Of a stretch of 45,388 nucleotides of DNA, positions 10,219 to 11,237 are shown piece after piece. Below the pieces are notes generated by a model. That model made no database searches. It worked only from the letters and a program-made list of their open reading frames with translations, and was not told the DNA's origin. The position numbers were made by a program, and so were the translations under genes. The stretch's first letter is position 1. Each line of letters starts with the position of its first letter. This DNA comes from Gallionella sp. (lineage in GTDB: Bacteria; Pseudomonadota; Gammaproteobacteria; Burkholderiales; Gallionellaceae), in contig JABEVF010000152.1 in the NCBI GenBank assembly GCA_013043965.1, forward strand, positions 1 to 45,388. Direction: 5' to 3'.

Positions 10219-10237
10219 ACACAGCACCACCGAACTC

Positions 10238-10308
10238 GTAGGGGCGCGATTCATCGCGCCCTTGCTTTATTCCATCGCAAATCAGGACGCAATAAATTGC
10301 GCCCCTAC
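10238..10308. repeat. Inverted pair of GTAG-type REP repeats
   Basis: GTAGGGGCGCGATTCATCGC at 10238 faces an inverted partner at 10285-10308 that reads GTAGGGGCGCAATTTATTGC on the minus strand. Each unit is itself an imperfect palindrome starting with GTAG, and the pair makes a BIME-like structure. The second unit matches the hisE-hisI repeat at 36160-36222. It fills most of the gap between the GldG-like gene and mutM, and its end is eight bases from the mutM start. Confidence 0.8.
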
Positions 10309-10316
10309 GAAAAACC

Positions 10317-11237
10317 ATGCCTGAACTCCCAGAAGTCGAAACCACCCGGCGCGGACTCGCAGAACATGTGGTCGGCGCGGTGATACGCGATGTCGTCATC
10401 CGCAATGCCAAATTGCGCTGGCCGATACCCGACCTGCCCGTGCAGGGTCGCACCATCCTGAGCCTCACGCGGCGCGCCAAATATCTGCTGATGGATTGCG
10501 GCAACGGCACCTTGATCCTGCACCTGGGCATGTCCGGCAGCCTGCGCATCCTGCCTGTCGGCACACCTCCTGCCGTACCCGCAAGGGGCATGTCCGGGGT
10601 GTCCCCGCAGCTACGCTGCGACCCTCCCGCTGTACCCGCAAGGGGCATGTCCGGGGTGTCCCCGCAGCTACGCTGCGACCCTCCCGCCACACATGATCAC
10701 TTCGATCTGATCTTGGAAAACGGCAAACTGATGCGCCTGCGCGACCCGCGCCGGTTCGGCGCGGTACTGTGGCATGCGGGCGATGTCCACACCCACCCGC
10801 TATTGGCCTCTCTCGGCCCCGAACCGCTGGAAGACGATTTCGATGCGCGCTATCTCTATCAAGCCACGCGCGGTCGCAGCATCAGCATCAAACAAGCCAT
10901 CATGGACAATCACCTCGTGGTCGGCGTGGGCAACATCTACGCCAACGAATCGCTGTTCCGCAGCGGCATCAAACCGCAATTGGCTGCGGGCAAACTCAGC
11001 CTGATACGCTGCGCAAAACTGGTCGCCGAGATACGCGCGACACTGGGCGAGGCGATCACCCAAGGCGGCAGCACCCTGCGCGATTTCGTCAACACCTCAG
11101 GCCAGCCCGGCTACTTCCAACAAAACTATTGGGTGTACGGCAGAGCGAACGAACCCTGCCGAAAATGCGGCGCGGCGATCAAGCAGATCAAGCAGGGACA
11201 GCGGTCAAGTTTTTACTGTGGAACTTGTCAAAGGTAA
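10317..11237 (+). CDS. mutM: Formamidopyrimidine-DNA glycosylase
   Basis: Bifunctional base-excision repair enzyme removing 8-oxoguanine and formamidopyrimidines. The N-terminus [14 protein letters not shown] supplies the catalytic Pro and Glu. Lys55 lies in RRAKYLL, the DNA-intercalating GMSG motif is near residue 71, the H2TH region contains [14 protein letters not shown], and a C-terminal zinc finger has CRKCG and CGTC. At 306 residues it is about 35-40 longer than usual. The excess is a duplicated 19-residue segment at about residues 86-123, inserted between ILPVGTPP and THDHFDL. The flanking family sequence is intact, so the enzyme may still fold. No Shine-Dalgarno is obvious because the REP pair abuts the start. 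Confidence 0.95.
10572..10685 (+). repeat. Tandem 57-bp repeat inside mutM, two copies
   Basis: Two near-identical 57-base units (10572-10628 and 10629-10685, differing by about two bases) lie in frame and encode [19 protein letters not shown] twice. Each unit holds two small palindromes, GGGGTGTCCCC and GCAGCTACGCTGC. A 12-mer, GGGCATGTCCGG, also occurs in the native GMSG codons at 10526, 60 bases upstream, so either local duplication or insertion of a palindromic element could explain it. Confidence 0.92.

Follow-up and report, generated by a model that had tools for sequence, protein, structure and literature searches.

The mutM gene in a window of 45,388 nucleotides from a Gallionella sp. 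genome (G000; the other G numbers used here denote genomes of relatives, and L numbers denote their loci) carries an in-frame insert that is very probably a head-to-tail dimer of a dispersed 57-bp palindromic element, one that occurs in most of the family (probably Gallionellaceae) and lies inside genes almost as often as expected by chance. To our knowledge, palindromes that code for protein have been described chiefly in Rickettsia and Wolbachia, which are host-bound bacteria. A prolific betaproteobacterial counterpart, with many genomes, clean pairs of filled and empty sites, and repeated hits at a single MutM site, makes the origin and the cost of such insertions directly testable, and it provides a natural series of loop insertions in conserved enzymes (MutM, UvrD, RecJ, NadA, QueA, and MurE). 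The element is also relevant to annotation, since it is easy to misread its inserts as segments specific to a lineage.

The mutM gene listed in Table 1 is the only MutM match in G000. The original prediction, that two in-frame 57-bp units add 38 residues to MutM before the THDHFDL motif, was borne out: the units stand in tandem and are identical at 55 of 57 positions, and a comparison with relatives, which gives the limits of the insert to within about one codon, places ATHDHFDL directly after it. The insert is not universal, as the alignment of MutM from relatives revealed a clean empty site in G036 and in G167, the latter having the closest MutM by identity (91% after the insert). The insert starts 14 residues past Met 72 of the GMSG motif, in a loop that we take to lie near the intercalating Met-Arg-Phe set of MutM, and ends two residues before the HDH motif, whose histidines (H126 and H128) are invariant across 54 aligned MutMs. 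The match to solved structures breaks at the insert in both alignments printed, and for E. coli Fpg (1k82) the break falls at chain residues 85-86, directly before KHDH. Comparison of the host MutM of G000 with that of G036 gave a dN of 0.129 and a dS of 1.01, indicating purifying selection.

TABLE 1 Features of mutM and its insert, with positions in the window
Feature	Position	Strand	Basis or remark
mutM (formamidopyrimidine-DNA glycosylase), 306 aa	10317..11237	+	Pfam Fapy_DNA_glyco, H2TH, zf-FPG_IleRS
Native GMSG codons with the 12-mer GGGCATGTCCGG common to the element	10526..10537	+	GGGCATGTCCGG recurs in both units
114-bp in-frame insert at MutM site A, 38 codons (codons 86-123)	10572..10685	+	Filled/empty comparison
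Unit 1 of the 57-bp element	10566..10622	+	Direct-repeat register; covariance-model register 10574-10633
Unit 2 of the 57-bp element	10623..10679	+	Direct-repeat register; covariance-model register 10631-10690
CCTCCTGCC, 5' flank resembling the element's own 3' end	10566..10574	+	Read from sequence; flank trend
CCTCCCGCC, 3' end of unit 2, near-direct repeat of 10566-10574	10680..10688	+	Read from sequence
Hairpin of unit 1, CGCAGC-TAC-GCTGCG, 6-bp stem	10606..10620	+	Both-side changes across copies; kept in and between genes
Hairpin of unit 2, CGCAGC-TAC-GCTGCG, 6-bp stem	10663..10677	+	Both-side changes across copies; kept in and between genes

A search for the repeat beyond mutM found it at other loci of G000, some of them inside other genes, in line with the earlier view of the unit as a mobile element. 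The 141 bp around the insert match two other places in G000 (E values of 1.1e-9 and 1.6e-4) and gave matches in 27 of the 61 genomes searched, G000 included, all of them in its own genus; in view of these matches, the mutM repeat is not a product of chance. From 24 copies picked by a strict pattern (alignment A1), we built a covariance model (R1), which at an E value of ≤0.01 matched 35 of the 61 genomes, comprising 33 of the 37 genomes of the genus together with 2 of the 24 from elsewhere in the order, the latter two with rough E values of 0.005 to 0.01 that are near chance. At an E value of ≤0.001, R1 matched 83 of 120 genomes of the family, distributed over 14 of 15 genera. The assignment of this family to Gallionellaceae is probable in that the best named relative, a Gallionella MAG, is placed within the genus by the MutM trees. 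Within G000 there are at least 11 matches at an E value of ≤0.1, of which five are strong (E ≤ 3e-11) and fall at four loci, and chance matches may be among the six weaker ones; the highest count in the family was at least 42, in G143. These copy numbers may be lower bounds, as part of the first-look candidates was scored. Tandem dimers with a spacing of exactly 57 bp occur in G000, G036, G001 (scored as intergenic), G158, and G115. An exact 30-nt pattern had no match in viral contigs.

Some copies sit inside other repeats. In G097, which belongs to another genus, six identical copies (L349 to L354) each lie within another palindromic repeat (CCCCT^CAGGGG) and share their flanks, with alignments of 86 to 181 bp. 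Given that each is found in a copy of that repeat and that the flanks are shared, the six may have multiplied together with the surrounding repeat. In some other genomes of the family, too, copies lie inside another palindromic repeat, there as in G097 apparently at its tip.

The consensus of the element, drawn by eye, is approximately GYACCCGCAAGGGGYAYGYCCGGKGKGTNCCCCGCNGCTWCGCNGCGACCCTYCCGCW. Each unit had been predicted to contain two hairpins, and of these, one was upheld: a 6-bp stem (columns 33-38 and 43-48) that, across the 24 aligned copies, is paired in 94% of cells and shows changes on both sides at four of its six pairs. Over the whole tested structure, 27 cells were changed on both sides, against a shuffled mean of 6.9. 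Since the copies come from one repeat family and were selected by a strict pattern, this covariation indicates that the palindrome is kept rather than that it acts as RNA. The stem retains on average 5.88 of its six pairs in 57 in-gene copies and 5.77 in 31 intergenic copies. The second hairpin is unsupported; the CCC-GCAA-GGG stem measures 3 bp, with two pairs invariant and the third unpaired in 4 of the 24 aligned copies, the outer GGG/CCC stem has one pair unpaired in 13 of them, and neither stem covaries in this alignment. The insert stretch folded no better than its dinucleotide shuffles, either as RNA (131 nt, z score of -0.63) or as DNA (71 nt, z score of -0.65). By eye, the ends of the element are weakly alike as inverted repeats, and the filled/empty pairs leave a few ambiguous bases.

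In its six frames, the element is poor in stop codons beyond what base composition accounts for. The mean number of open frames per copy is 5.31 of 6, compared with 4.24 in shuffles, and 47 of 100 copies are open in all six frames, compared with 13% of shuffles (the copies are related, and a P value is therefore omitted). The element would thus be read through in host genes as a predicted peptide of 19 residues, in many frames and in both orientations. A longer form, in which a shared extra peptide (GSSP-NIVAP---CFER) interrupts the element at one and the same point, was observed in MutM of G003 (L035) and in ygjP of G010 (L386) and G015 (L184); the last of these is a single ygjP gene with two separately placed copies of the element, which point in opposite directions and of which one is interrupted.

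All strong copies of G000 lie in open reading frames, namely, two in MutM and the others in Exo_endo_phos (antisense), in a squalene/phytoene synthase (SQS_PSY; HpnD-like), and in FtsW, where the copy stands a few codons after the predicted start and was scored as overlapping the gene end. Among 131 distinct copies, 71 are inside predicted genes, 13 run across gene ends, 44 are intergenic, and 3 are near contig ends; nearly all come from the genus, and the set is a sample led by the best-scoring matches rather than a census. Genes were called by our own procedure from open reading frames and codon usage, under which copies that break a gene would not count as inside. At 46 non-homologous sites, 30 copies were inside genes, 12 between genes, and 4 across gene ends, which, relative to 1,820 of 2,342 random control positions inside genes, amounts to a slight avoidance (P = 0.05). 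When all 128 copies away from contig ends are counted, genes are clearly avoided (odds ratio of 0.36, P = 8e-8). The 71 in-gene copies use all six combinations of frame and strand (24, 10, and 9 antisense; 15, 9, and 4 sense).

Scanning 29 host open reading frames with Pfam placed 28 above the family cutoff, the exception being L207 (VTT, 25.5 bits versus 33.9). The hosts include RecJ (two), UvrD (at two places), YgjP (at two places), RarA/MgsA, a Competence (ComEC) protein, QueA, two Mur ligases, PrmC, an HflX-type GTPase (our naming), alanine and Asp/Glu racemases, NadA, two NuoG-like proteins, and DegT. For QueA, copies were noted at four loci (L186, L193, L225, and L282), as judged by a common flanking peptide, with the Pfam assignment made on L186.

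Comparison of filled with empty sites puts the length gained with the element at exactly 57 bp (19 codons) for HpnD and NadA and at 54 bp for MutM of G015. In HpnD, G000 and G011 are exactly 57 bp longer than 13 empty sites (30 loci compared, 15 of them off-pattern); in NadA, the same exact difference separates G026, G033, G015, and G019 from 18 empty sites (31 loci, with 7 off-pattern and two that repeat filled loci). At site A of MutM, which lies between LRILP and the invariant HDH, the insert measures 54 bp in G015, 57 bp in G158 and G078, and 114 bp in G000.

MutM itself is a repeated target. We read 34 MutM open reading frames of the genus (the other 3 of its 37 genomes gave none or a fragment), and 10 of them contain some insert. 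Within this set, site A is filled in G000, G003, G015, and G021 and empty in 30, with the copies of G003 and G021 interrupted by further in-frame sequence. Site B (CGN^TLILHLGM) is filled in G010, G011, and G015 by another repeat, which has similar DNA at other loci; site C (EPLE^FDARYL) is filled in G013, G033, and G034 and has a short insert in G029; and site D is filled in G034. The extra peptides at sites C and D (L213 to L215 and L056), such as TLTLPLPLQGGG and STGSGQTDLSTH, look like translated repeats. Further in-frame sequence was also seen nested in the MutM inserts of L034 (G021), L036 (G015), and L054 (G011), and part of the nested sequence at site B of G015 matches many other loci.

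A family-wide search gave MutM matches in 149 of 158 genomes, and the best few of these MutMs, which were read, added G158 and G078 (other genus), so that site A is filled in six genomes (G000, G158, G003, G015, G021, and G078). On an insert-free MutM tree of 35 rows, the site A label requires at least five changes, be they gains or losses, and the filled G000 and G158 form a single four-row clade with the empty G167 and G036. When the two halves of MutM were treated separately, the N-terminal half joined G000 with G036 (96/94) and the C-terminal half left G000 unresolved. The site A copies belong to two subfamilies, one (PARGTP...) in G021 and G078 and another in G000, G158, G003, and G015. 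Given that these subfamilies differ and occur in different lineages, we infer at least two insertions into the site A loop; beyond the two subfamilies, gains and losses in MutM cannot be told apart.

A serious possibility, albeit one that we consider somewhat improbable, is that each site received a single old insertion, which then passed down by vertical inheritance and was lost precisely on many occasions, the element not having moved recently; as to what the element is, this overlaps with our preferred explanation. It agrees with the picture at ygjP, where, among 31 loci, some copies are intact, others have shrunk to remnants, and further sites are cleanly empty, and where tree neighbors differ by the element at the same spot (G031 empty beside G007 filled, and G020 empty beside G018 filled). 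The remnants, together with the clean empty sites, suggest that an old insertion has been lost at some of the empty sites. Similarity is also mostly higher among copies at one site (means of 0.90 to 1.0) than between these and the other copies (means of 0.71 to 0.81), and G000 and G158, which fall in one clade with G167 and G036, have elements that are identical except at 1 of 57 positions. The two subfamilies in different lineages at MutM site A are, however, difficult to reconcile with a single old insertion, and the closest counterpart of the QueA copies lies at a different site (similarity of 0.95 to 0.96), with NadA nearly so (0.87 to 0.93).

The divergence of the element also argues against old neutral inserts, in which such low values far below those of flanking synonymous sites would not be expected. 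Copies at one site have a pS of 0.10 and a pN of 0.08, whereas host codons reach a pS of 0.45 and 0.54 over the nearest ten codons on the two sides and of 0.29 to 0.51 further out, so that the synonymous difference of in-gene copies is 3 to 5 times below that of adjacent host codons. Part of this low divergence is detection bias, as detection drops with random change (of 34 copies, 29 were detected at 15% change, 21 at 20%, 13 at 25%, and 4 at 30%). Coconversion of the flanks as the cause of the similarity was considered and not seen, the flanking pS (0.45 and 0.54) contrasting with the value inside the element. The dN/dS ratio was 0.80 in the element and 0.22 in 60 downstream host codons (seven groups, two of them without synonymous change in the element). 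In-gene copies thus seem to be conserved at the level of the DNA and not of the peptide, or else to be renewed by reinsertion. Tentatively, and as a suggestion more than an expectation, the 57-bp element might be a mobile element tuned to genes, with a length divisible by three, stop-poor in all six frames, gained and lost precisely at recurrent sites, and conserved as DNA and not as protein, with the host gaining, and able to lose, a tolerated peptide of 19 residues.

Under our preferred explanation of a dispersed element, it would be small, non-autonomous, and mobile, perhaps traveling as a hairpin of single-stranded DNA, and would land preferentially after sequence resembling its own 3' end (CCGCW). 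Landing beside such own-end-like sequence would generate head-to-tail dimers at the exact 57-bp spacing, and slippage between the near-direct repeats could remove a copy exactly; in MutM, the enzyme would tolerate the peptide in its loop and be little affected by it. The five letters 5' of the element agree with CCGCW at a mean of 2.27 of 5 positions, compared with 1.57 of 5 at random (0 of 5,000 resamples; 45 sites), a weak preference that is to be read as a description rather than a test, since these sites also supplied the consensus. The flank likeness, the dimers, and the seat within palindromic repeats would fit a hairpin or single-strand route.

The alternative that the element is a REP moved by a RAYT (Y1 HUH) transposase appears unlikely. 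It would suit a small palindrome that forms tandem dimers, sits in another palindromic repeat, and leaves no long target duplication, and PF01797 has matches in 32 of the 37 genomes of the genus, with one full-length, IS200-like match in G000. Against it, GTAG or CGTC, the end tag of GTAG/CGTC REPs, was found near the ends of none of 100 full-length copies; no strong copy stood beside the 21 same-genus Y1 loci scanned of 30 (two weak matches, 19 and 11 bits); and the element carriers G006, G021 (83% complete), and G036 have no PF01797 match at an E value of ≤0.001. The PF01797 search found no transposase tied to the element. REPs as surveyed in 2013 (PMC3733652) resemble the element in being short palindromes that are often dimers, with some intragenic and many of these in repair genes, uvrA, uvrB, and recB among them, but they are mostly intergenic, unlike the present element with its 30 of 46 non-homologous sites in genes. 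Gallionella and Sideroxydans are absent from the main text of that paper.

Likeness to the palindromic elements of Rickettsia (RPEs), which had been proposed for the MutM insert, holds for behavior, in that the element is dispersed, palindromic, and in-frame within genes. By analogy, the element seems to behave like RPEs (PMC3767692, PMC2229807, and PMC10969869), the likeness drawn here being one of behavior. Features of the RPE and Wolbachia (WPE) kind that we found are a dispersed family in one genome, a kept palindromic stem, and in-frame insertion absent from orthologs. According to PMC3767692, the Rickettsia and Wolbachia elements are likewise small palindromic repeats of several families that lie in-frame in conserved genes, and QueA (tRNA ribosyltransferase-isomerase) carries inserts in Rickettsia as it does here. 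For a guanylate kinase that contains an RPE, translation and activity are reported, along with an altered affinity for its substrate (PMC2229807). RPEs are about 105 to 150 bp, whereas the present element is 57 bp, GC-rich, and found in all six frame/strand combinations and in tandem 57-bp dimers; its hosts, a betaproteobacterial family of inferred free-living iron oxidizers, are also unlike those of RPEs. Bacterial MITEs (RUP, ERIC, Correia/NEMIS, and Nezha), as presented in PMC10969869, are similarly non-autonomous, dispersed, and sometimes part of in-frame fusions, but neither clear long terminal inverted repeats nor a target duplication was seen for the present element, a parent insertion sequence having been sought via PF01797 only. 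In the open-license PMC literature, we found nothing on this topic under Gallionellaceae or Sideroxydans, and in PMC4886054, a paper listed for Gallionella, "palindromic" refers to CRISPR. We file the element among the protein-coding palindromic elements rather than as an RPE or a RAYT-type REP.

It is very unlikely that the insert was recruited to MutM function, for example, to bind lesions or partners. Its position between Met 72 and HDH and the repeated hits on this site would speak for such a role, yet 30 of the 34 MutMs read from the genus have an empty site A, and the inserted peptide evolves with a dN/dS of ∼0.8 against 0.22 in host codons of the seven host groups. Even less probable is an assembly artifact: the genome is in 157 contigs and tandem repeats are prone to misassembly, but the two units differ at two positions, single-unit inserts occur at site A elsewhere, and dimers are present in four other genomes. 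The 12-mer GGGCATGTCCGG common to the element and the GMSG codons was indeed observed, its copies being spaced 60 and 57 bp apart, but the local triplication of native codons once read into it is rejected, since the GGGGCAYGTCCGGGG core is present in element copies in an unrelated gene (ygjP) of other genomes, so that the 12-mer belongs to the element and the GMSG match is a coincidence.

A second palindromic repeat, CGTAGGGGCG ... GCGCCCCTACG, was noted at 10237-10309 (10236-10314 of the window), stopping seven bases upstream of the mutM start codon. The single Rfam match, at 10235-10289, scored 21.7 bits, under its cutoff of 51. At an E value of ≤0.001, the palindromic repeat upstream of mutM has 15 matches at about 11 places in G000, itself included.
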